DNA from: Polyangium fumosum
GTDB taxonomy: Bacteria; Myxococcota_A; Polyangia; Polyangiales; Polyangiaceae
DNA length: 64,000 nt
Direction: 5' to 3'
Assembly (NCBI RefSeq): GCF_005144585.1
Contig: NZ_SSMQ01000002.1
Span: 1-64,000 of the forward strand
A program made the translations under genes and the position numbers. Every line of letters starts with the position of its first letter. Positions within the stretch are counted from its first letter, which is position 1. Under the pieces are notes generated by a model that was not told the DNA's origin, ran no database searches, and worked only from the letters and a program-made list of their open reading frames with translations. Of the stretch, positions 46,782 to 61,002 are shown piece after piece.

Positions 46782-48416
46782 TCAGCGCCGGTTGCGCTTT
46801 CCCAGGGTCTGCGCAATCGGCTCGATCACGCGGTACTGGCCCGTGGGGAAGTCGCGGCGGGTCGGATTGCGGCGGAGCGCGAGCAGCGTGATGTCGTCGA
46901 ACTGCGCGGCGCTCCCGATGTGATGGCGGAGCGCGGCCACGACGTCGCCGAGCATGGTCGTGACGGAAGGCGCGCCGCCCCGCAGCATCGAGAGGAGTTT
47001 TTCCTCGCTGAACGGGGCCTCGGAGGGGTCGAGCGCGTCGCTCACGCCGTCCGTGAAGGCCACGAGAGAATCGCCGGGCAGCAACGTCACCTGTCCCATC
47101 TCGAATTCGACGTCCCGGATGGCGCCGAGCGCGGGGCCCGTCGATTCGAGGCGGCTCTCCTCGCCGGTCGCGCTGAGGACGATCGGCGCGTCGTGCCCGC
47201 AATTGACGTAGGAGAGATCGCCGCTCTCCGGGTCGAGGACGCCGAAAAAGAGCGTCGTGAACATGGCCGTGCGGCCGTGGTTCTCGGCGAGGTAATCGTT
47301 CGTCTGGGTGATCGCCTCGAGGACCGCGGTCCGATGGGGCGCCCGGAGCGCGAACGCGCGGAGCAGGCCGCGGACGAGGGACATGAAGAGCGCGGCGCCG
47401 ACGCCCTTGTCGCAGACGTCGGCGATCGCGACGGCGACCTCGCCGGAGGCGAGCTGAAAGACGTCGTAGAAATCGCCCGAGAGCTGGCGCGCCGGCAAGA
47501 ACCGGGCGGCGATCTGCCAGCCGGGCAAGGAGGGCAGATCACGCGGGAGGAACTCGGATTGGAGGACGCGGCCGATCTGCATCTCGCGCTCGACGGCCGC
47601 GAGGCCATTCTCGGCGCGCTCGCGGGCCACGGCGAGCTCCTTGTAAAGGCCTTCGAGCTCGAGGAGGCGTTGCTTGAGCGCCTCGTCGGTCTGCCCGAAG
47701 AGCTTGGCATTGTGGATCGCGATCGCGGCCTGCCCCGCGAACGCCTCCAGCAAATCGAGCTTCGCTTGCGAGAACTGCCCGGTGAAGGCGCGGTTGTCCA
47801 CGTACAGGACACCGATCACCTTGCCCCGGATGCGCAAGGGCGCGGCCATGATGCTCGTGAGCCGGAACATCGCCACGCTGCGCTGGAGCGCGAATCGCTC
47901 GTCCGTCTGCGCATTGCTCGTGAGCACGCTGCGCTCGCTCTTCAAAACCTCCTCGACCACGGAGCTCGAATACGCAAACTCCATGCTCCGAATGGTGTCC
48001 TGATCGAGGTTCCGCGCGACCTGGACGTCGAGCTTGCCGTATTGGTCGACGAGGACGAGGTAGCCGCGCTCGGCCTTCGTCAACTCGATCACGGAGTCCA
48101 TGCACTGGTTCAGCACGGTCTTGAGATCGAGCGAGGAGGTGATCGCCTTGCCGACCTCGAAGAGCGCGGCCTGCGCCTCGCGCGACATGGCGCCCTCCTG
48201 CTCGCGCCGCTCCACGTCGAGGCTCGTGCGAAACGTGGAGAGCTGCGTGATCAGGGCGTCGATCTCGCCTGGCAAATCCCGCGCGAGATCACCGCCGCGC
48301 TCGCGCAGGAGGCTCGCGGCCCGGGCAAGGTCGAGCTGAAGCCGCGTGGCGTCGCGGAGGATACGCTCGAGGTCCGAGGCGTTCGGCTCGTCGGGGGCTC
48401 TTCGGGTGGCGGTCAT
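46782..48416 (-). CDS. GAF-PP2C (SpoIIE/RsbU-type) phosphatase
   Basis: A 544-aa cytoplasmic protein with ATG at 48416. An N-terminal coiled coil (1-80) is followed by a GAF sensor (about 85-250, AQAALFEVGKAITSSLDL...VIGVLYVDNR), a second coiled coil, and a SpoIIE/PP2C phosphatase (about 300-525). The phosphatase has metal ligands in SGDFYDVF, ADVCDKGVGAALFMSL, FTDGVSDALD and FDDITLLAL. RsbU-type enzymes dephosphorylate Ser/Thr on STAS anti-sigma antagonists. It lies just downstream of four Ser/Thr kinases on the same strand, so it could reverse their phosphorylation (inference). Confidence 0.92.
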   Translation of the reverse strand: MTATRRAPDEPNASDLERILRDATRLQLDLARAASLLRERGGDLARDLPGEIDALITQLSTFRTSLDVERREQEGAMSREAQAALFEVGKAITSSLDLKTVLNQCMDSVIELTKAERGYLVLVDQYGKLDVQVARNLDQDTIRSMEFAYSSSVVEEVLKSERSVLTSNAQTDERFALQRSVAMFRLTSIMAAPLRIRGKVIGVLYVDNRAFTGQFSQAKLDLLEAFAGQAAIAIHNAKLFGQTDEALKQRLLELEGLYKELAVARERAENGLAAVEREMQIGRVLQSEFLPRDLPSLPGWQIAARFLPARQLSGDFYDVFQLASGEVAVAIADVCDKGVGAALFMSLVRGLLRAFALRAPHRTAVLEAITQTNDYLAENHGRTAMFTTLFFGVLDPESGDLSYVNCGHDAPIVLSATGEESRLESTGPALGAIRDVEFEMGQVTLLPGDSLVAFTDGVSDALDPSEAPFSEEKLLSMLRGGAPSVTTMLGDVVAALRHHIGSAAQFDDITLLALRRNPTRRDFPTGQYRVIEPIAQTLGKRNRR

Positions 48417-48504: not shown

Positions 48505-51231
<2,727 letters not shown>

Positions 51232-51287
51232 GACGGGAACATCGTAGCCCGTCCGCGGGCTCCCGCCCAGGTACGATGGCGCGTTCG

Positions 51288-53885
51288 TCAGGGTTTGCGC
51301 CGGGGCGCGCAGCCGAGCGCCTTCTGCCGACGAGCCGCGTCGCGCGCCGTGATCGAGTCCTTCGCCGCGCCCCACCGCGAGAGGACGCTCTGATACGCCG
51401 CGCACGCGAGGTCCTTTTCACCCCGCGTTTCACGCGCGACGCCGATGCGATGCTGGTTCTGCAGATAGCTGACCGGATCCATCAACATGGCGCAATGGCT
51501 CGAAGCCTGGACGAGGTCCGGCAAGGCCGCGTCCATCTCGCCCGCGAGGAACCGGATTTTTCCACGAAGCGCGGCGGCATAATGACCACGATAGAAAGGG
51601 ACGTCCTCGGGGCGCACGGCGAAACGCGACATCGCGGCGAGCGCCTCGCGCGCGTCCTCGGGCGTGAGCGCAGGCAGGGCATACCCGGCGTACCAGGCGG
51701 AGGCGGCGTCACCCTGCTCGGTGCAGCGTTGCAACCAGGCGTCGCGATGCGCAGCGCGGTCGTCCGCCGAGAGCAGGCCCGCGCGATGGGCGACGGCGTA
51801 AAACAACGGGTCCGGGTCGACGATGCATCCCTCGACGGTGGAGCGGAGCGAGGCCGTCTGCCGCGCGAGGAAGTCCGAGGCGACGCGGCCGGCATCCGCG
51901 GTGCGCCCGAGCTCGAGCAAAAGAAGGGTATGCTTGGCCGTGGGGCCGGCCCCGTGATCCGTGTCGCCGACGTTGCCCGTCTGCTGGAGGGCCTTCAGCG
52001 CGGCCTCGAAATCACCCGTGCCCGCGGCGAGCCCGAAATCGAGCGTGAGGGCATCGACCTGGAGGCCCGAGAGGCGGAGCTTTTGCGTCGCCACATCGAC
52101 GACGGCGCGGACGGCGGCGTTCTCGCGGCCCTGCCCATAAAGCGCGGACGCGAGATACCCATGCGCCCGGCCGAGATCGGGCTCGCGCGCGATCCAGTTC
52201 CGCGCGACCTCTTCGAGGCCCACGCAGCGGCCCGACAGGACCTCCACGGTGGCCCGGTCGAACATGCAGTCACCCGCGGTGGGAGCGATCTCGACGCATC
52301 GATCGAGCGCGCGCCGCGCGTCCTCGCCCCGACGGAGGGCGAGGAGCGCGCGGGCCTGGGTTTGCCAGCAATCGGCGTATCGATCGTCGAGCCTGAGGCA
52401 ACGCTCGGTGAGCGCGAGGACCTCGGCCGGGGTGTGTTGGACGAACGGGAAAAACTGCCAGTACACGAGCTCGGCGTCGCCCGGATACCGGGCCGAGAGC
52501 GCCGTGACGCGGCGGCGCATCTCGGTGAGGTCGGGCGGGTCGCGCTGCAAGAAGGGTTCGATCGCGTCGAGCAGCGCATGATCACGAGCGCCGAGCGAGG
52601 ACCGCAAAAGGAAGGCGACCCGGTAGGCCTCGCGCGCGGGGTCGAGGTCGTCGGAGTCGATCGCGGTCATCGCATAACGGAGATGCGCGAGCGCGAGCGA
52701 GGGATCGGCCTTGCGGGCGCGATCGAAGGCGAGGCGCGCCGTCGACCAGGAGGCGTCACGGATGGCCTGGACCCCCTCGCGATACGCGACGAGCGCCTCG
52801 GGTTTGTCCGTGGTCGGGAGCGGAAGATCGGTGATCGCGACCTTGACCGGCAGCACGGCCGACGCAAACGGCAAGGCCGGCCCGATGTCGGCACGTTTTT
52901 CCTGGCGAAACACGAACCACGCGACGGCGGCGAGCGCGGCGAGGACGGCGGCGAGCGCGAGCCCGCGCGCCGCAGGAAAACGGGCCGTGGCGGGCGGGGG
53001 CGGCGCGGGGAGCGGCGCGGGCGCGGGCTCGATCGAGAGGAGCGCGAGCTCATCGGCGAGCGCGGCCATCGAGGGGAATCGATCGGCGGGGTCTTTGGCG
53101 AGCGCGCGGCGGACGAGGTCACGGACGCCCTCGGGCGCGCGGGTCATGGGCTTGGGCTCGTCGGCGAGGATCGCGCTGATGAGGGCCGCGGGGCCCTTGT
53201 CCGCGCGGAACGGCAGCTCGCCCTCGAAGAGCTCGTGGGCGACGACGCCAAAGCCGAACTGATCGGAGCGCGCGTCGAGGGCCTCGCCCGTGAGCTGCTC
53301 GGGCGCCGTGTACGCGGGCGTGCCCTGGAACATGGACTCGGGCGGCTCGGCCTCGAGCGTCCGCGCGCCGGGATCGGTCTCGCGATCGAGCCCGCGCGCG
53401 ATGCCGAAATCGAGCACCTTCACGGCGCCCGCCTGGCTCACGACGATGTTCTCGGGCTTGACGTCGCGGTGCACGAGGCCGGTCTGGTGGGCCGCGGCGA
53501 GCGCGCGCGCGACGTCGTGGAGGATCTGGATCTTGCGGGCGTCGGGTACGTCCTTTCCGACGAGCGCGCGCAAGGGTTCGCCCTCGGCGATCTCCATGGC
53601 GATAAATGCCGTGCCGTCGAGCTCGCCGACGTCGTAGATCGCCACGATGCAGGCGTGCGAGAGCGCCGCGGCCGCGCGCGCCTCGCGGAGCATGCGCGAC
53701 GCCTCGTGGGCCCACGCGTCTTCGGAGAGCTCGCCGTCCTTGCGCAGGAACTTCAGCGCGACCCTGCGGCCGAGGCGCGTGTCGAGGGCGCGATACACTT
53801 CGCCCATGCCCCCCTCGCCGAGGAGGGATTCGACGACGTACCGGCCAAAGACCTCGCCGCTGGCGAATCGCGTGGACTCCGCCAT
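51288..53885 (-). CDS. membrane Ser/Thr kinase with TPR-like ectodomain, array copy 2
   Basis: An 865-aa paralogue with ATG at 53885. The kinase motifs are complete (GEGGMGEVY, VALKFLRK, HRDVKPEN, LDFGIARG, GTPAYTAPEQ). The activation loop is shorter and more acidic (DRETDPGARTLEAEPPES) than in copy 1. A membrane helix (GLALAAVLAALAAVAWFVF) precedes the TPR-like part and the shared terminal module (CAAYQSVLSRWGAAKDSITARDAARRQKALGC). It ends 56 bases before copy 1, and its start is 3 bases from the stop of copy 3, suggesting one transcript. Confidence 0.92.
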   Translation of the reverse strand: MAESTRFASGEVFGRYVVESLLGEGGMGEVYRALDTRLGRRVALKFLRKDGELSEDAWAHEASRMLREARAAAALSHACIVAIYDVGELDGTAFIAMEIAEGEPLRALVGKDVPDARKIQILHDVARALAAAHQTGLVHRDVKPENIVVSQAGAVKVLDFGIARGLDRETDPGARTLEAEPPESMFQGTPAYTAPEQLTGEALDARSDQFGFGVVAHELFEGELPFRADKGPAALISAILADEPKPMTRAPEGVRDLVRRALAKDPADRFPSMAALADELALLSIEPAPAPLPAPPPPATARFPAARGLALAAVLAALAAVAWFVFRQEKRADIGPALPFASAVLPVKVAITDLPLPTTDKPEALVAYREGVQAIRDASWSTARLAFDRARKADPSLALAHLRYAMTAIDSDDLDPAREAYRVAFLLRSSLGARDHALLDAIEPFLQRDPPDLTEMRRRVTALSARYPGDAELVYWQFFPFVQHTPAEVLALTERCLRLDDRYADCWQTQARALLALRRGEDARRALDRCVEIAPTAGDCMFDRATVEVLSGRCVGLEEVARNWIAREPDLGRAHGYLASALYGQGRENAAVRAVVDVATQKLRLSGLQVDALTLDFGLAAGTGDFEAALKALQQTGNVGDTDHGAGPTAKHTLLLLELGRTADAGRVASDFLARQTASLRSTVEGCIVDPDPLFYAVAHRAGLLSADDRAAHRDAWLQRCTEQGDAASAWYAGYALPALTPEDAREALAAMSRFAVRPEDVPFYRGHYAAALRGKIRFLAGEMDAALPDLVQASSHCAMLMDPVSYLQNQHRIGVARETRGEKDLACAAYQSVLSRWGAAKDSITARDAARRQKALGCAPRRKP

Positions 53886-53888
53886 ACG

Positions 53889-56621
53889 TCAGCCGGCCTT
53901 TGCCTCGCAACCGAGCGCTTTTGCGTGCGCGCGGACCTCGGCCGCCGTGCGCGAGGCGCGCGCCCCGCCCCAGCGCGCGAGGACACGGCCAAACGCGTCA
54001 CACGCGCCCGAGCGGTCGCCGAGGGCCTCACGGACGAGGCCGAGCAGGTGGAGGCTCTTCGTGTGGCGCATGGGGTGCGTGGGCATCATCGGCTCGACGA
54101 GGCCGCTGCACGAGACGGTCGCCGCCGTGAGGTGCGGAAGCGCGGCGGCGGGGTCGCCCGCGAGCCAATACGTTTGGCCGAGCGCGCTGTCGAGGATGAG
54201 GCCGAAGTGAAGGGAGAAGCTCCGCGGCTTGGCGAAAGCCTCGGACGGCATCACCGCGAGCGCGGCCTTCGCTTCCGCGGCGTCGCGGGCGACGAGCGCA
54301 TACCCGGAGACCCATACGCCCATCCGATACGCGTGCTCCGAATGGCTCTTCACCCAGGCCGCGCGCTCGGCCTCGTACACGTCCCGCGTGATGAGCCCCG
54401 CGGCGCGCGAGGCACGCAAAAGATGCACGAAAGAATCGGCGCTGATGGGATCGGTGATCAGCGCGCCGCGGCGCGCGAGGAAGCTCTGCGCCTCGCGGCC
54501 CGCGTCGGCGTCGCGGCCCATTTCTTCGAGCACCTGGACGAGCATGCTGGCCGTCCAGCCATGCGCGCCCGCGGCCGGATCGTCGGCGACGAGGCGCTGG
54601 TGGTCGCGGAGCATGCGCTCGGCTCGCTCGAACCTGCCCGTGGCGATCTCGTGCAGGATGAGCTGCTTGGAGGCCTCGGCCTCGAGCCCCTGCGTTCGGA
54701 ATTGCGCCGCCGCGGTCTCGACGGCGGTCTTCACGGCGGCCTCGGGCGCGCCGCGCGCGTAGAGCGCGCCCGCGAGCTGCATGTGCGCGGCTGGGGCAAT
54801 GCCGACCTTGGCGATCCATTCACGCGCGCCGGCCTCGACGACCGAACACCGGCCGAGCGCGAGATTCGTATCGCCTCGATCCATGAGGCAATCGGAGGCG
54901 GCTGGTGTTGCCTCGATACAGCGCTCGAGCGCCGCGAGGCCCTCCTCGATGTGCCCGGTGCGACGGATGAGCAGGCGCGCACGCCCCTGCAAGCAATCGC
55001 CATACAGGGGATCGAGCTCCAGGCAACGATCGATGCGCGGCAGGACGTCGGAAGGCGGCAGGTAAGCGAGCGCGTACATCGAAGCGAGGTTCGCGAGCTC
55101 GGCGTTGCCAGGGAATCGAGCGGAGGCGAGCGCGAGGCGCCGGGCGGTCTCGGGGACATCACTCGGCTGGCGCTGAATGAGGGGTTCGTGCGCGTCGAGG
55201 AGGGCCTGGTCGTGGGGGTCGAGCGTCGCGCGCCCCAGGACCGCGCGGCGAAAATGCTCGCGCCCCGCCGTGAAGTCCGCGTCCCAAATGAGGATGGCCA
55301 TCCGCAGCCAGGCCGCGGCGAGCCCCGGATCGGCCCCTGTGGCGCGCGCGAAGGCGGCATACGCCGTCCTCCAGGCCCCGTCGCGCAGCCCCTGGAGCCC
55401 CTCGCGATACGCCGCGCGCGCCTCTTCATTCGCGAACTTCGGCAAAGGCAGGGCCGTGACGGCCGTCGGCACGGGCGTGAGGGAGGTCCGCGCGAGCACG
55501 GGCGGCGGCGCGGTCCTGGCCTTGCGGGCGAAGACGAACCCCGCGGCCGCGACGCCCACCGTGACGATGGCGGCGAGGCCGAGAAAGCGGCGCGCGCGTG
55601 CGGGGGCGCGCGTGGTCGTCACCGGGGTGCGATTCGTGGTGGCGCGGCGCGCGGACGAGCGCGTCGTCATGCTGCGGGAGGGGGTGCTCGCCTTCGGTGG
55701 CGGCGGCTCTCGCACGGAGGGACGCGCGGCGTTCGCGGGCCCGTCCCTTCTCCGCAGGAGCGTGGTGATCGGCGTGGCGAAGGGCGCGAGCGCCGCGACG
55801 ATGTCGTCCATCGAGGCGTGGCGATCGGCGGGCTCCTTGGCGAGCGCGCGAGCGACGACGGCCTCGATCTCGGCAGGCACGTCGTTCATCGGCGGCGGGT
55901 CGTCGCTCAGGATCGAGGCGATGAGGCTCACGGGCCCGCGATCCAAACGGAACGGGAGTTTGCCCACGAGCAGCTCGTACGCGGTGACGCCCCAGGCGAA
56001 TTGATCGACCCGTGCGTCGATGGGATCCCCCTTCACTTGCTCGGGCGCCATGTACGCGGGGGTGCCGACGAACGAGCCATCCCCGGTGCGCGTGGCGAGA
56101 TCGTCGTGCCCCTCGGAGAGCGCAATCTCCGCGTCGGTACGCCGCGCGATGCCGAAATCGAGGATCTTGATGACGCCGTCCTCGCGCAGCATCACGTTCT
56201 CGGGCTTGACGTCGCGGTGCACGAGCCCGGCGTGGTGCGCGACGGAGAGGACCTTCGCGATCGCGGAGAGCAGGGTGATCTTTTCGCCGAGCGGCGCATC
56301 CGCGTGGACGAGGTCGCGCAAAAGCTTGCCTTGCACGAGCTCCATCGCGATGAAAGGCGCGCCCTCGTGCTCGCCGACGTCGTAGACCGCGACGATGCCG
56401 GGATCATTCAACGCCGCGGCGATCCGCGCCTCGCGGAGCATGCGGCGCACCTGCCGTGCCCAGCTCTCGCTCCCGCCCTGGATGTCGCGCCGAAGCACCT
56501 TGAGCGCGACGCTGCGGCCGAGACGCGTATCTTGCGCGCGGTACACCTCGCCCATGCCGCCTTCGCCGAGGAGCGCTTCGACGACGTACCGATCGAACCT
56601 TTCTCCCGGGGAAAGGGGCAT
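53889..56621 (-). CDS. membrane Ser/Thr kinase with TPR-like ectodomain, array copy 3
   Basis: A 910-aa paralogue with ATG at 56621. Its kinase domain (GEGGMGEVYRAQD, VALKVLRRD, HRDVKPENVML, LDFGIARR, GTPAYMAPEQ) is complete. A Ser/Thr/Arg-rich linker (about 300-345: SRSMTTRSSARRATTNRTP) offers many possible autophosphorylation sites. A membrane helix (FLGLAAIVTVGVAAAGFVF) and TPR-like helices follow, ending in CDAFGRVLARWGG. The N-terminal MPLSPGERFDRYVVEALLGE is nearly that of copy 1. It starts 51 bases downstream of the methyltransferase gene. Confidence 0.92.
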   Translation of the reverse strand: MPLSPGERFDRYVVEALLGEGGMGEVYRAQDTRLGRSVALKVLRRDIQGGSESWARQVRRMLREARIAAALNDPGIVAVYDVGEHEGAPFIAMELVQGKLLRDLVHADAPLGEKITLLSAIAKVLSVAHHAGLVHRDVKPENVMLREDGVIKILDFGIARRTDAEIALSEGHDDLATRTGDGSFVGTPAYMAPEQVKGDPIDARVDQFAWGVTAYELLVGKLPFRLDRGPVSLIASILSDDPPPMNDVPAEIEAVVARALAKEPADRHASMDDIVAALAPFATPITTLLRRRDGPANAARPSVREPPPPKASTPSRSMTTRSSARRATTNRTPVTTTRAPARARRFLGLAAIVTVGVAAAGFVFARKARTAPPPVLARTSLTPVPTAVTALPLPKFANEEARAAYREGLQGLRDGAWRTAYAAFARATGADPGLAAAWLRMAILIWDADFTAGREHFRRAVLGRATLDPHDQALLDAHEPLIQRQPSDVPETARRLALASARFPGNAELANLASMYALAYLPPSDVLPRIDRCLELDPLYGDCLQGRARLLIRRTGHIEEGLAALERCIEATPAASDCLMDRGDTNLALGRCSVVEAGAREWIAKVGIAPAAHMQLAGALYARGAPEAAVKTAVETAAAQFRTQGLEAEASKQLILHEIATGRFERAERMLRDHQRLVADDPAAGAHGWTASMLVQVLEEMGRDADAGREAQSFLARRGALITDPISADSFVHLLRASRAAGLITRDVYEAERAAWVKSHSEHAYRMGVWVSGYALVARDAAEAKAALAVMPSEAFAKPRSFSLHFGLILDSALGQTYWLAGDPAAALPHLTAATVSCSGLVEPMMPTHPMRHTKSLHLLGLVREALGDRSGACDAFGRVLARWGGARASRTAAEVRAHAKALGCEAKAG

Positions 56622-56672: not shown

Positions 56673-57470
56673 TCAGCGCGCGAGGGCCGCGCGTTCGATG
56701 CCGAGCGCGGCGCACGTCTCTTCGTCGAGCACGTCGCCACGGGCCGGGGGCACGTAAAGCGTGGTCGCGGGCGTGAGCTCGGCATCGGCGAGTTTGCCGA
56801 GCGCGATTCGCTCGATGCGCGGGGGGCAATTGATGAAGACCGCGGCCTCGTAAAGGGTGACCTGGTGGTCCTCGGGGTAATGCTGGAGCAGGCGATCGAC
56901 GAGCACGTGAATCCATTGGCCGCGGTTGCCCTCGGGCCGGTACGTCGCGTCGCCGAACATGCCGACCTGCCAGAGGATCAACCCCGACGAGGGGTCGACG
57001 GCCTTCTTGTACAGGACGAACCGCGTGGCCTCGTGGCTGTTGCAGCCAGGGTTCGCGGGGTCGACGCCGAGATCGGCGAAGAGGCAATCCTCGGCGGAGA
57101 CGGCCGGGTACATCGTGGCCTCGAAGCCCTCGGCGCGCGCCCGGCGAATGGCCTCGTGCGTGGGAAAAGCGAAAACGCCGGGGTGGCCGTACGCGGCGCA
57201 GCAGGTGCGATGGCCGTCGCGGACGGCGCTCATGATCCGCTCGACCATGGCGTCGTACGCCTCCCGGCGATTGCGACCGAGCCGGTAAAACCGACCGAGC
57301 GACTCCGCCGCGGGCTGAATTTGCTTGATGACCTGCTCGCCGACGAGATCGGCGATGATGTAAAAGACTTTCGTGGAGGTCTTCAGCCTTGCAATGGTAT
57401 CGCCGGTGAGCTGACCGACCGTCCGGATCCCGGTGCCCACGACGACGAGCGAACCTTTTTCTTTGATCAT
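56673..57470 (-). CDS. borosin-type peptide alpha-N-methyltransferase
   Basis: A 265-aa SAM-dependent enzyme of the tetrapyrrole-methylase fold. The ATG at 57470 fits the family start (KGSLVVVGTGI) and has GGGAGG about 11 bases upstream; an ATG at 57494 is possible. Against remembered OphMA (Omphalotus) and SonM (Shewanella) it keeps VVGTGI, the Arg68-x3-Tyr72 pair (RREAY) equivalent to catalytic Arg72/Tyr76 of OphMA, YGHPGVF with Tyr94, SAEDCLFADLGVDPANPGC, SHEATRF and LILWQVG. These enzymes iteratively methylate backbone amides of a RiPP precursor. Here no precursor is fused to the C-terminus, so it is the 'split' type, needing a separate substrate; the likely one is at 60611-60841. It sits between two kinase genes on the same strand. 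Confidence 0.87.
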   Translation of the reverse strand: MIKEKGSLVVVGTGIRTVGQLTGDTIARLKTSTKVFYIIADLVGEQVIKQIQPAAESLGRFYRLGRNRREAYDAMVERIMSAVRDGHRTCCAAYGHPGVFAFPTHEAIRRARAEGFEATMYPAVSAEDCLFADLGVDPANPGCNSHEATRFVLYKKAVDPSSGLILWQVGMFGDATYRPEGNRGQWIHVLVDRLLQHYPEDHQVTLYEAAVFINCPPRIERIALGKLADAELTPATTLYVPPARGDVLDEETCAALGIERAALAR

Positions 57471-57510
57471 GCGGCCTGATGCCTCCCGTGGCATGCGCCG
57501 GGCTCGCGCC

Positions 57511-60450
57511 TCATTCGACGCATTTCAACGCTTTTGCCCGGGCCGCGGCGCCCTGGGCCGTGACCGAGCCCTTCGCGCGCCCCCAGCGATCGAGCACGGC
57601 TCGATACGCGGAGCACGCGCCTTGTTTGTCGTTGCGCTGCTCGCGCGCGACGCCGAGGCGATACGTCGCGACGGTATGGAGAATGGGCTCGTCGAGGGCC
57701 GTGCAGGAGCGGGCGGCGACCTCGAGGTGCGGCAAGGAGCGCTCGACGTCGCCGGCCAGGTAATGGACGCCGCCGACCCACATCTCCACCCGCGGCGCCA
57801 TTTGCGCATAAAAGGTCGCCGGCTGGAGCGCGGGCTGCGCCGCGAGCGCCTCCCGCGCCTGGGCCTCCGTTCGGGCCGGCATGGCGTACCCGACGAACCA
57901 GATCGAGGCCTGCTTCATGTCGTTCGTGCTGCTCGCGAAGCTGCTCTCCCACGAGGCGCGCGCCAGGGTGAACTGCACGGCGTCGAGCCCGCCGCCCCGC
58001 CGCTTCGCTTCGAGGAACGCGACCGTCGGATCCCACCAGATCGACCGGACCACCGGCTGGGTCCACGCCGAGCGTTGCGCGAGAAATCGATCCGCCACCT
58101 CGGCCGCGCGTTTGTCCTGGCCTAGCTCCCCATAAAGCTGGACGAGCGCGAGGGCCGGGACGACGTGCTTTTCTTCCAGGGATTCGTCGGCGATGTCTTG
58201 TTCGAGCTCACGCGCGATGCGCTCGGCAGCCTCGAAGTCACCGCCGATGATCGCGTGATGAATGCGCAGCCGGCCGGCCTCCTCGATACGCCCCTGATCC
58301 CGGAATTTCCTCGCCGCCTGCTCGACGGCCGCCTTCACGGCGGGGCCCTGCTGCCCGCCGGCCTGCAGGGCCACGGCGAGCTCGTTGTGGGCGCTCGCCG
58401 AGCTCGGATCCTTCGTGATCCATTGCCGCACGTCCGCTTCGAGCAAATCGCACTGGCCGAGGTACTTCCGCGCGAGGACCCGCTCACGCAGGCAATCCAC
58501 CGCCGCCGGCACGAGCTCGACGCAACGATCGAGCGCCGCGAGCGCCTCCCGCTCCTGGCCGGTCCGGAAGAGCGAAAACGACCGCACATGCCAGCAATCG
58601 GCATATTTCGGATCGAGCTCGAGGCACCGGTCGGTCAACGAGAGGAGCCGCGAGGGCTCTGCGCGCATCTGCAGCGCCACCAGCAAATTGACGAACTCGG
58701 CGTCCCGCGGATACCGATTCGAGGCGTCCTCGATTCGCTTCACCGTCTCGTTCACGTCCGGAGGATCCCGCTGGAGCAGGGGCTCGAGCGCGTCGAGGAG
58801 GACCTGATCCCGCTCCGTCATCGTGCTCCGGAGCTGCACGGCGCGCTGGAAGGCGAGCCGCGTGCTCTCCGTGTCGGTGAGGAACCGCTCGATGAGCGCG
58901 AGGCGCAGATACGCCGCGCCAAACCCATTGTCGGCCTTCGTCGCGCGCTCGAACGCCCCCCGCGCGAACTCCCAGGACGCGTCCCGCAAGGCCTGCAAGC
59001 CCTCCCGGAACGCGGCGATCGCCGCAGGGTTCGACGATCCCGAAATGGGCAGCTCCGTGATCGGCGTGGGCGCGGGCGCGGGCGTGATCGTGGCCACGGG
59101 CGGAGGCGCGATTTTCTTCCGATACCAGAAGGTCCCCCACACCGCCGCGGCCACGACCCATATCGCGCCGAGGCCCAACATCGGCCAGCGCGACCACCGC
59201 CGCCCGAGCTTCGGCGGAGCCGCCGTCGCCAGGGCCGGCGATTCGAGCGTGGTCATCGCCGCCGTCGTCGTCTTCCCCGTATTGCCGGGCATTTCCACGC
59301 GCACGACGGGCGTGATCGGCGCCGGCGTGGGGCGCCCGGCCCTGTCGAGGTCCGGCGAGCGCATCGTGTGCGTGGCGGGCGTGGCGCGCGCGGGCGGCGG
59401 CGCGGACTCCGACTTCGTCGCGATCGAGACCCTGGACATCCTCGGCCCGGGCGGCATCACGCGCGCGTTCGGCGCTACGTCCTCGGGCGCCAGCGTCTCC
59501 GGCTCCGTGGAGTCGGGCCCGGGGATCACGACGTCGTGCAGGCCGCCCGCGTGCTCGGACGCGACATAAGGCGCGAGCGCGTCGACCACGAGATCCATCG
59601 AGGAGAAGCGGTCGACTTTGCGCTTCGCGACCGTGCGCTTGAGGACCCGCTCGATCACCGGCGGCACGAGGCCGTCGAGCGAAGGCGGCTCGTCCTGCAG
59701 GATGGCCGAGAGCAGCTTGATGCCTTCGAGGTTCGCGCCGAACGGCACGCGGCCCGTGATGAGCTCGTACGCGAGCACGCCCCAACCGAACTGATCCGTC
59801 CGTGCGTCGACCGGATCACCCGTGAGCTGCTCGGGCGACATGTACGCCGGGGTTCCGACCATGACGCCCTCGCTCGTGACCGTGTCCGCGCTTCGTAGCG
59901 ACCCGATCTTGTTCGCGATCCCCGTGCCACGCTGGGTGGAGGCGGCCTCGTCGGCGTCGAGGTGCACACGCCGCGCGATGCCGAAGTCGAGGACCTTGAT
60001 GGCGCCGTCCTCGCGCAGCATCACGTTTTCCGGCTTCACGTCGCGGTGGACGAGGCCTGCGCGGTGGGCGGCGGAGAGGGCGCGGGCCACGTCGAGCAGC
60101 CATCCGAGGCGCGTGGAGATCGAGGCGCCGCCGCCGATCAAGCGCCGGAGCGAGAGGCCCTCGATGAGCTCCATCGCGAGGTAGGGCAGGTTCTCGGCCT
60201 CGCCGATGTCGTAGATGGAGACCGTGTTCGGGTGGTTCAGCGCTGCGGCGGCCCGTGCCTCGCGGAGCATGCGGACGAGGGCGCGTTGCCAGCCCTCGGG
60301 ATCGGCCGCGGCGTCCTTGCGCAGGACCTTCAGCGCGACGCGGCGCTGCAGGCGGACGTCGCGCGCTTGATACACCTCGCCCATGCCCCCCTCGCCGAGG
60401 AGCGCTTCGATCACGTACCGGTCGAAGGTATCGCCCGGGCGCAGGCGCAT
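57511..60450 (-). CDS. membrane Ser/Thr kinase with TPR-like ectodomain, array copy 4
   Basis: A 979-aa protein with ATG at 60450, the longest of the four. The kinase domain has GEGGMGEVYQARD, VALKVLRKD, HRDVKPENVML, LDFGIARR and GTPAYMSPEQ. A long Pro/Thr/Ser linker (about 320-425) precedes the membrane helix (WPMLGLGAIWVVAAAVWGTFWY), then TPR-like helices and the terminal module CSAYRAVLDRWGRAKGSVTAQ. It lies directly between the putative borosin precursor and the methyltransferase, with all three on one strand. It could regulate or modify the peptide pathway, or simply be part of the kinase array into which the pathway is inserted. Confidence 0.92.
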   Translation of the reverse strand: MRLRPGDTFDRYVIEALLGEGGMGEVYQARDVRLQRRVALKVLRKDAAADPEGWQRALVRMLREARAAAALNHPNTVSIYDIGEAENLPYLAMELIEGLSLRRLIGGGASISTRLGWLLDVARALSAAHRAGLVHRDVKPENVMLREDGAIKVLDFGIARRVHLDADEAASTQRGTGIANKIGSLRSADTVTSEGVMVGTPAYMSPEQLTGDPVDARTDQFGWGVLAYELITGRVPFGANLEGIKLLSAILQDEPPSLDGLVPPVIERVLKRTVAKRKVDRFSSMDLVVDALAPYVASEHAGGLHDVVIPGPDSTEPETLAPEDVAPNARVMPPGPRMSRVSIATKSESAPPPARATPATHTMRSPDLDRAGRPTPAPITPVVRVEMPGNTGKTTTAAMTTLESPALATAAPPKLGRRWSRWPMLGLGAIWVVAAAVWGTFWYRKKIAPPPVATITPAPAPTPITELPISGSSNPAAIAAFREGLQALRDASWEFARGAFERATKADNGFGAAYLRLALIERFLTDTESTRLAFQRAVQLRSTMTERDQVLLDALEPLLQRDPPDVNETVKRIEDASNRYPRDAEFVNLLVALQMRAEPSRLLSLTDRCLELDPKYADCWHVRSFSLFRTGQEREALAALDRCVELVPAAVDCLRERVLARKYLGQCDLLEADVRQWITKDPSSASAHNELAVALQAGGQQGPAVKAAVEQAARKFRDQGRIEEAGRLRIHHAIIGGDFEAAERIARELEQDIADESLEEKHVVPALALVQLYGELGQDKRAAEVADRFLAQRSAWTQPVVRSIWWDPTVAFLEAKRRGGGLDAVQFTLARASWESSFASSTNDMKQASIWFVGYAMPARTEAQAREALAAQPALQPATFYAQMAPRVEMWVGGVHYLAGDVERSLPHLEVAARSCTALDEPILHTVATYRLGVAREQRNDKQGACSAYRAVLDRWGRAKGSVTAQGAAARAKALKCVE

Positions 60451-60480: not shown

Positions 60481-60568
60481 CGCTAAGAACATGCTGAGCG
60501 GCAATTTTTCGACAGGCAGCAGCGCGCGCAAGCTCACCTGCGGGCGTACCTGATTATGGCGTGACGCC

Positions 60569-60600
60569 CGAGGGCCCTCCGGGACGAACGGGGGCCCTCG
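60569..60600 (-). terminator. 9-bp hairpin after the putative precursor gene
   Basis: CGAGGGCCC (60569-60577) pairs perfectly with GGGCCCTCG (60592-60600) across a 14-base loop, starting 10 bases after the precursor stop in the direction of transcription. There is no T-run. It is a candidate attenuator or mRNA-stabilising stem letting precursor mRNA exceed that of the downstream genes, common in RiPP operons (inference). Confidence 0.45.
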
Positions 60601-60610
60601 CCGGCGTGGC

Positions 60611-60841
60611 TCAAAACAAGACGGCGAGCACCGGGCAGTTCCACGGGGCCGAGGCGGGTCCTCCGCGCTCCGTGCAAAGCCAGTCGGACATCAACGCGGG
60701 GTTCGCGCTCTGAACGACGAGGCGCTCTTCCTCGCCCAGGTTCACCCGCTTCATCAGCTCGTCGGGATCCTGGAGGAACGCGGCCAAATGGGACGGATCG
60801 AGGGCCATATCGGCCAAAAACCGACCAAGAGAAGCTTCCAT
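60611..60841 (-). CDS. putative split-borosin precursor peptide, 76 aa
   Basis: An ATG at 60841 follows ggagcctccc. Residues 1-50 form three to four short amphipathic helices (LGRFLADMALDPSHLAAFLQ, DPDELMKRVNLGEEERL, VVQSANPAL). This is the layout of the borosin-binding domains of split-borosin precursors and of LigA/Nif11-like leaders: F-x-x-x-L, a DP turn, a second DP-x-x-L-M helix, then a Gly-bounded loop. A GG at 60-61 is followed by a short tail ending WNCPVLAVLF, whose hydrophobic VLAVLF run is a plausible methylated core. Cys56 and Cys69 could form a disulphide or be modified. It is encoded upstream of the kinase and methyltransferase genes on the same strand. An AT-richer patch at about 60925-60950 could hold its promoter. 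Confidence 0.68.
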   Translation of the reverse strand: MEASLGRFLADMALDPSHLAAFLQDPDELMKRVNLGEEERLVVQSANPALMSDWLCTERGGPASAPWNCPVLAVLF

Positions 60842-61002
60842 GGGAGGCTCCGAATGTCGTGCGGCTCTGAATCGACGATGACTCCATCGCCCAATTCGAG
60901 GTGGGACGACAGGCCGGCAGTGTTCTTAGTTTACGTGTGAATGCTCGCTGGGGGCAAGGCTTTTCTTCCCCGGCAGGATCTTTCGGGTTCGGGGCCTCGG
61001 CC

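Follow-up and report, generated by a model that had tools for sequence, protein, structure and literature searches.

The window, that is, the whole 64,000-nucleotide stretch of Polyangium fumosum DNA analysed, carries on its minus strand a row of genes in the order precursor, KIN2, methyltransferase, KIN3, KIN4, KIN5 and GAF-SpoIIE phosphatase. The features considered are as follows.

60863..60892, minus strand: 30-bp upstream element, occurring once per genome with 0 mismatches in 6/6 Polyangium genomes (the search covered Polyangium only); a putative promoter or 5' leader.
60611..60841, minus strand: split-borosin precursor ORF (very probable), 76 aa; predicted borosin binding domain (BBD, residues 1-58) plus tail, assigned by orthology, selection and predicted fold.
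60614..60667, minus strand: proposed linker and core, residues 59-76 (RGGPASAPWNCPVLAVLF); 59-70 invariant in six species, 71-76 variable, with putative exact core limits.
60545..60612, minus strand: GC-rich stem-loop just past the precursor stop, z -2.64; a possible attenuator or processing site with no T-run.
57511..60450, minus strand: KIN2, 979 aa; Pkinase (HRDxK, DFG), linker, possible membrane segment and TPR-type domain (pLDDT 92).
56673..57494, minus strand: borosin alpha-N-methyltransferase, 273 aa, SonM homologue; TP_methylase, with SonM Y58/R67/Y71/Y93 corresponding to Y70/R76/Y80/Y102.
53889..56621, minus strand: KIN3, 910 aa; Pkinase, one hydrophobic segment and a TPR-type part homologous to KIN2.
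51288..53885, minus strand: KIN4, 865 aa; Pkinase, one hydrophobic segment and a TPR-type part homologous to KIN2.
48505..51405, minus strand: KIN5, up to 966 aa, with an uncertain start that overlaps KIN4; Pkinase, one hydrophobic segment and TPR.
46782..48416, minus strand: GAF-SpoIIE (PP2C-type phosphatase), 544 aa, immediately following KIN5 and presumably part of the same unit.

The initial annotation had placed a 76-residue candidate precursor at 60611-60841 without giving a strand. We found exactly this ORF on the minus strand, with an ATG start, 76 codons, a TGA stop and a GGAG 6 nt ahead of the ATG; its translation, MEASLGRFLADMALDPSHLAAFLQDPDELMKRVNLGEEERLVVQSANPALMSDWLCTERGGPASAPWNCPVLAVLF, contains the GG at 60-61, the cysteines at 56 and 69 and the C-terminal Phe that had been pointed out. 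A full-length or near full-length orthologue was present in 6/6 Polyangium genomes searched, the five others being 82-97% identical to the window precursor, and within the organism's own genome, 13 Mb in 201 contigs, there is a single full-length copy beside one paralogue at 41% identity. Among 183 genomes of the order, seven gave a match at E <= 0.001, six of them Polyangium and the seventh (G163) with a partial leader match only, and a second search of 377 genomes spread evenly over the phylum returned matches only in Polyangium (5 genomes). Spurious ORFs are many in this GC-rich genome, and an ORF as short as this might simply go untranslated. However, the mean synonymous difference over residues 2-57 was 0.249 per site against 0.062 for non-synonymous sites (15 genome pairs, six species), the corresponding values for residues 58-70 were 0.27 and 0 (mean of 15 pairs), and the reading frame runs without internal stop or frame break through six species, which leaves that explanation a close to negligible probability. 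The precursor ORF is a real gene under purifying selection.

The methyltransferase gene lies 3.1 kb downstream. Its product matches TP_methylase (PF00590, E 1e-15 in Pfam), and its best PDB match is SonM (E 2.8e-60), with dbOphMA and OphMA also matched. The SonM alignment spans residues 14-266, with 7 residues remaining at the C-terminus, and describes a stand-alone enzyme without a fused core. SonM residues Y58, R67, Y71 and Y93, which have been probed by mutation (PMC8429565), align to the identical Y70, R76, Y80 and Y102, and these are invariant in 15 aligned relatives. At E <= 1e-10 the methyltransferase was found in 10/183 genomes of the order, 6/6 Polyangium genomes included. The precursor and methyltransferase genes share a strand and a cluster and are not direct neighbours, a 2.9-kb kinase gene standing between them: the precursor ends 160 nt before KIN2, KIN2 is followed after 16 nt by the methyltransferase, and 51 nt separate the latter from KIN3. 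In 6/6 Polyangium genomes precursor, KIN2 and methyltransferase keep the same order on a single strand with only KIN2 in between, although in G151 a contig end truncates the downstream part, and the remaining kinases, on a second contig, were assigned to the cluster by homology. Homologues occurring mostly without a borosin methyltransferase had been named as evidence against the precursor call; instead, all six genomes with the ORF carry an orthologous methyltransferase. Precursor, KIN2 and methyltransferase are one inherited unit. Relatives of the GAF-SpoIIE gene adjoin KIN5 in G149-G152 (83-92% identical), the G148 stretch not reaching that far.

Two non-coding elements flank the precursor. 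The 30-bp upstream element contains CGATG-GAGT-CATCG, a possible operator, and synonymous sites nearby do differ. The fold of the precursor's 5' leader RNA was unremarkable (z -0.63), and we therefore do not argue that the conserved 30-mer is structured RNA. Downstream, the stem-loop is strong in 6/6 genomes, but over the 75 nt after the stop its z against shuffles was -3.17, -1.05, -1.88, -1.44, -4.17 and -4.78 in the six genomes, below -3 in 3/6 and weak in the other three, and we treat it as no more than a lead; the 75-nt windows of the same stretches that folded equally well numbered 9/316, 32/266, 6/233, 30/249, 0/331 and 10/331. A sigma-70 scan returned no promoter-like site, and a terminator scan gave one plus-strand terminator-like site, near chance.

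The leader had been described as compact and helical, which an AlphaFold2 model built from 13 rows bears out: five helices at residues 5-14, 16-24, 26-32, 37-44 and 48-58, with pLDDT block means of 72-94 for residues 1-60; for the tail, confidence is low (41 and 47). Residues 1-53 of SonA form a five-helix bundle in crystal structures (PMC8429565). The leader model superposed on the SonA BBD (7ltr_I) with a VIA Z of 7.6 over 52 residues at an rmsd of 1.5 A, a Z below 8 that is not decisive for a helical bundle, and Foldseek gave a target-normalised TM of 0.83 against the same chain with weak E-values (best 0.49). The top fold matches among solved chains were SonA, DesB/LigA domains (DesB, LigAB) and the MroMA clasp, and structural homologues of the BBD are described as capping dioxygenases (PMC8429565). 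Given the weak Foldseek E-values, a Z below 8 and a fold common to LigA-type dioxygenase domains, the fold alone is no proof; phmmer of the ORF against PDB sequences gave nothing meaningful (three matches, E 1.1-1.3). The small ORF might accordingly be an orphan LigA-like dioxygenase subunit unrelated to the methyltransferase, as the presence of DesB and LigAB among the fold matches and a Pfam LigA match (PF07746, E 0.013, 16 bits, below the curated cut-off of 25.3) would allow. This is very improbable in view of its linkage to a SonM homologue in 6/6 genomes and of BBD-like stretches at other SonM-type loci that match a profile built from Polyangium leaders; moreover, no dioxygenase catalytic subunit was matched among the window neighbours scanned with Pfam. 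As modelled, leader residues 1-58 are a borosin binding domain.

Across six Polyangium species, variable positions number 13/50 in residues 2-51, 0/19 in 52-70 and 5/6 in 71-76 (Fisher p 0.014 for 2-51 vs 52-70, and 0.0001 for 71-76 vs 52-70). The invariant stretch 52-70 ends …TERGGPASAPWNCP and runs into C-terminal ends that are mostly hydrophobic (VLAVLF, VLAVLF, VLMMF, MLAMF, MLIQ and TLAMIF). These counts divide the precursor into a conserved leader, an invariant linker together with the start of the tail (SDWLCTERGGPASAPWNCP), and a short end that varies. The initial annotation had expected a conserved leader with a variable hydrophobic tail and had taken a strictly conserved tail to speak against its call. 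The outcome is divided: the expected pattern holds for residues 71-76 and across the paralogous modules described below, in which the leader is kept and the tails differ, and fails for residues 52-70, which are strictly conserved. The GG and Cys56 are present within the window's orthologue group and absent in the paralogues. The paralogous cluster keeps PWSCP and lacks both, so neither a GG cleavage site nor the 56-69 disulphide that had been put forward is common to the family, and both are possible inside the window's own orthologue group. By the double-glycine motif rule, hydrophobic residues stand at -4, -7 and -12 before the GG (PMC10885120); counted back from Gly61, Leu55 (-7) and Leu50 (-12) fit, Glu58 (-4) does not, and a Pro follows the GG. 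Pfam found no C39 domain among the scanned window neighbours, two C39 domains lie elsewhere in the own genome (C171; C123 at 271.5 kb), and a C39-type cut after the GG is possible.

Taken together, it is very probable that the ORF encodes a bacterial split-borosin precursor (type IV-like), whose leader docks on a SonM-type methyltransferase, whose tail is N-methylated, and whose leader and linker are removed. The earlier suggestion that the ORF is a substrate of the borosin methyltransferase thus gains support from the gene's orthology and selection, the predicted fold, the linkage and the conserved SonM-type active site, with methylation, its positions, cleavage, export and signalling as predictions. 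The five-helix leader would dock on the methyltransferase encoded at 56673-57494, which would thread the C-terminal tail through its active site and N-methylate backbone amides from N to C, as described for SonA (PMC8429565), and a protease would then remove leader and linker. Pro66 and Pro70 have no NH, so methylation would probably fall among Trp67, Asn68, Cys69 and Val71 onwards; by position, SonA Leu63/Ile65 correspond to about precursor residues 64-66. Counting against the precursor reading are the gene between the pair, the weak Foldseek E-values, the LigA-like fold, the lack of a recognised protease or exporter (Pfam recognised none among 11 window proteins, 42.5-63.5 kb) and the invariance of residues 52-70, unlike a diversifying core.

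Among known systems, the closest likeness is to SonA/SonM, the type IV split borosin of Shewanella oneidensis, which shares the separate methyltransferase of about 270 aa, the precursor of about 75 aa, the five-helix N-terminal binding domain, the short C-terminal tail and the same active-site residues (PMC8429565). In contrast to SonA/SonM, a kinase gene lies between the Polyangium precursor and methyltransferase genes, whereas in the Shewanella and Streptomyces pairs the precursor is described as next to the methyltransferase gene; and the Polyangium tail PASAPWNCP is rich in Pro, Trp and Cys, while SonA is methylated at Leu63 and Ile65 (PMC8429565). The fungal fused borosins (OphMA, dbOphMA and MroMA) have a homologous methyltransferase domain and the clasp fold; unlike in them, the Polyangium precursor is encoded apart from the enzyme and has a short tail. 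The initial annotation had contrasted the short core with the long Val/Ile cores of fungi, which are not the best comparison, as in bacterial SonA residues 62-71 occupy the active site (PMC8429565). Bacterial split borosins of types V-X, with trans-acting methyltransferases and diverse precursors, are alike by description (PMC11285071, PMC11395268). By the features testable here, the Polyangium system is a split borosin except that precursor and methyltransferase genes are not direct neighbours; its variant features are the kinase between the genes, what looks like a duplication of the whole unit, and the occurrence of kinase genes at loci of this type in other phyla.

A second cluster of precursor, kinase and methyltransferase is carried by 3/6 Polyangium genomes (G000, G148 and G150), the own genome among them. 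The second-cluster precursors (L044, L045 and L046) share the leader and SPWSCPY, after which come about 95 residues of PLSTRAP-like Ser/Thr/Arg/Pro repeats; phosphorylation and a spacer role are two options for these repeats. Extra BBD plus methyltransferase pairs lie between the kinases, one in G150 and two in G152; NYNYPYYPNDTGETV and QTWPFYCDPGDPGEAS are examples of their tails. The same kinases thus enclose three pairs in G152 (L043 4312-16949) and two in G150 (L042 5208-16508), and the window has one pair with four kinases; from these differing numbers, pairs seem to have been gained or lost while the kinases were retained. At L047 and L048, BBD and methyltransferase are plain neighbours, kinase-free within 6 kb. 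Further BBD ORFs were sought in six stretches (L146-L151), covering the rest of the clusters and kinases off borosin loci, and none was found at E <= 0.05. BBD-like ORFs also occur apart from a linked methyltransferase: L055 (8290-8871), from G163, a genome with no methyltransferase match, is a longer protein whose N-terminus is BBD-like, and L003 in the own genome is a weak BBD-like match (E 0.64) away from both methyltransferase loci. These cases indicate that a BBD by itself proves nothing.

The paralogous modules bear on whether a peptide is released at all. The BBD protein could stay whole and serve the kinase as a methylated regulatory partner, be it adaptor, inhibitor or phosphorylation substrate, which would suit the invariance of residues 52-70 in six species, the scanned neighbours among which no protease or transporter was recognised, and the paralogous precursor, which has a long tail of Ser/Thr-Arg-Pro repeats and is followed by a kinase gene. 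However, the last six residues vary and are mostly hydrophobic, and paralogous modules within the genus have quite different tails, as expected of cores rather than of a fixed docking surface. We regard such a permanently attached partner as unlikely.

KIN2-KIN5 each contain a Pkinase domain with HRDxK and DFG motifs, and the C-terminal parts of KIN3-KIN5 are homologous to that of KIN2 at 39-42% identity. Pfam TPR models scored above cut-off in KIN2 and KIN5 and matched KIN3 and KIN4 weakly. Between the kinase and TPR parts, KIN3-KIN5 and the second-cluster kinase have a strongly hydrophobic 19-residue stretch; KIN2 has a Trp-rich stretch at this position, below threshold. The KIN2 C-terminal part was modelled as a helical TPR-like superhelix (pLDDT 92), and its fold matches were generic superhelices (OGT, APC/C subunits and LGN), and NprR, a peptide quorum sensor, ranked 44th (Z 14.1); matches this generic mean that the fold does not demonstrate peptide binding. 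Cys 643, 667, 916, 946 and 977 of KIN2 are invariant in 22 aligned rows, a pattern that suggests disulphides and hence a TPR part that may lie outside the cytoplasm. LanKC/LanL and the TOMM kinase-cyclase (NCBIfam TIGR03903) likewise belong to RiPP systems with Ser/Thr kinase domains and gave partial model matches; in contrast to those proteins, scores were far under the curated cut-offs and the matched stretches, hence the resemblance, are confined to the kinase domain.

Myxobacteria are very rich in Ser/Thr kinases, and the borosin unit might merely have landed in a kinase array that carries it as neighbour by chance. Scoring 150 out of 320 candidates gave at least 150 Pkinase domains for the own genome, the TPR-kinase family occurs in 56/183 genomes of the order with 7 candidates scored per genome, 48 of the 56 being without a methyltransferase match, and for 4/21 methyltransferase genes in the order the surrounding 6 kb contain no kinase-domain ORF; at 2 more (L049 and L053) the sole one is on the other strand. 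However, there are two copies of the precursor-kinase-methyltransferase unit, and the kinases of one cluster have those of the other as their nearest group in the tree. That tree comprises 33 kinase rows; one branch (89/82) splits the 26 borosin-locus rows from the 7 others, the latter being a small sample of the family, and KIN2 orthologues and second-cluster kinases form one group (100/99), from which precursor, kinase and methyltransferase seem to have been duplicated together. Of six matches to the KIN2 TPR part in the own 13-Mb genome (84 candidates scored), five, KIN2 included, are at the two borosin loci. Kinases at loci in other phyla, described next, are moreover concentrated on the same strand, 24/25 of them within 4 kb despite slightly more flank at 4-10 kb. 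On this balance we find it unlikely that the kinases are passengers, to about the same degree as the attached partner.

Beyond Polyangium we examined 75 SonM-like loci, the best-scoring of one scan and not phylogenetically balanced. An HMM built from 13 Polyangium leaders detected BBD-like sequence on the methyltransferase strand, no more than 4.5 kb away, at 44 of these, leaving 31 without; one of the 44, L072, is a fusion to the methyltransferase, and some loci, such as L080 and L082, are near copies. Over all 78 loci at E < 1e-3, it gave 50 matches on the methyltransferase strand vs 1 on the opposite strand. Since the leader profile was built without non-Polyangium loci, the BBD matches there are independent support. 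Kinase-domain ORFs were found at 24/75 non-Polyangium loci from several phyla, 12 of the 24 being cyanobacterial and related to each other; the other 51 had none in the flanks examined. At these 24 loci there are 25 kinases, 23/25 on the methyltransferase strand and 24/25 within 4 kb, the flank available amounting to 528 kb within 4 kb vs 624 kb at 4-10 kb. Nine borosin-locus kinases were resolved by Pfam into Pkinase plus TPR (L071, L093, L103, L107 and L128), Pkinase, AAA and TPR (L111), Pkinase, AAA, GAF and SpoIIE (L096), and Pkinase plus FGE-sulfatase (L077 and L087). At cyanobacterial loci, separate TPR genes stand beside the methyltransferase: a strict home-made TPR profile found 20 ORFs in 12/75 loci, all cyanobacterial and interrelated, 11 of the 12 with a kinase, and these ORFs were 20/20 co-directional and within 4 kb, with none at 4-10 kb. 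The strict profile misses divergent TPRs that Pfam detects in fused kinases, so this is not a full TPR count. GAF and SpoIIE domains, fused to cyanobacterial borosin-locus kinases such as L096, form a separate gene beside KIN5 in the window.

Some BBD-like proteins encoded close to SonM-like genes, in cyanobacteria (L096, L101, L117, L123, L139 and others) and also in Polyangiales (L051, a weak match at E 0.29, L053 and L054), have Asp-Pro-rich tails (DPGPDPLPDPDP and similar), a tail type unlike hydrophobic cores. BBD-like ORFs with many repeat units (MVYGA, VVYAAG, QMPAGAVAPQ) were found at L077 (9027-10010), L087 (9018-10001), L086 and L076, those of L077 and L087 adjoining the kinase-FGE-sulfatase fusions, and L072 (9773-10795, Planctomycetales) joins an N-terminal BBD-like stretch and a methyltransferase in a single reading frame.

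The conserved gene row with membrane-type kinases suggests that the finished peptide may be a signal. Judging from the gene company, the peptide would be read by, or act with, the TPR-bearing kinases; we propose tentatively, at less than even confidence, that the co-encoded Pkinase-TPR proteins are partners or mediators of the modified peptide's action, in the simplest case with the TPR domain binding it as a signal. A wider and more doubtful extension is that split borosins like this one serve as ribosomally made signal peptides, N-methylated on the backbone and each encoded alongside a receptor kinase of its own: methylation would make the peptide protease-stable, an extracytoplasmic TPR would bind it and switch a cytoplasmic Ser/Thr kinase, and a SpoIIE-type phosphatase would counter the output. 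On that extension, methyltransferase, BBD precursor, Ser/Thr kinase and TPR would have been assembled, fused or separate, in Polyangium, Acidobacteria and cyanobacteria.

Borosins have been described as a widespread bacterial class (PMC11285071), to which the precursor on its own adds one new member. A borosin-kinase link was not found in the borosin literature searched, which stands apart from the main surveys (Imani 2022, Cho 2022, Lee 2024, Crone 2023), and we make no claim of priority. With its short Pro/Trp/Cys-containing substrate made of invariant and variable parts, the Polyangium unit is useful for questions of what borosin methyltransferases accept. To our knowledge, the biological role of bacterial borosins is largely open, and the repeated link to sensor-type Ser/Thr kinases would offer a concrete, testable one, peptide signalling.
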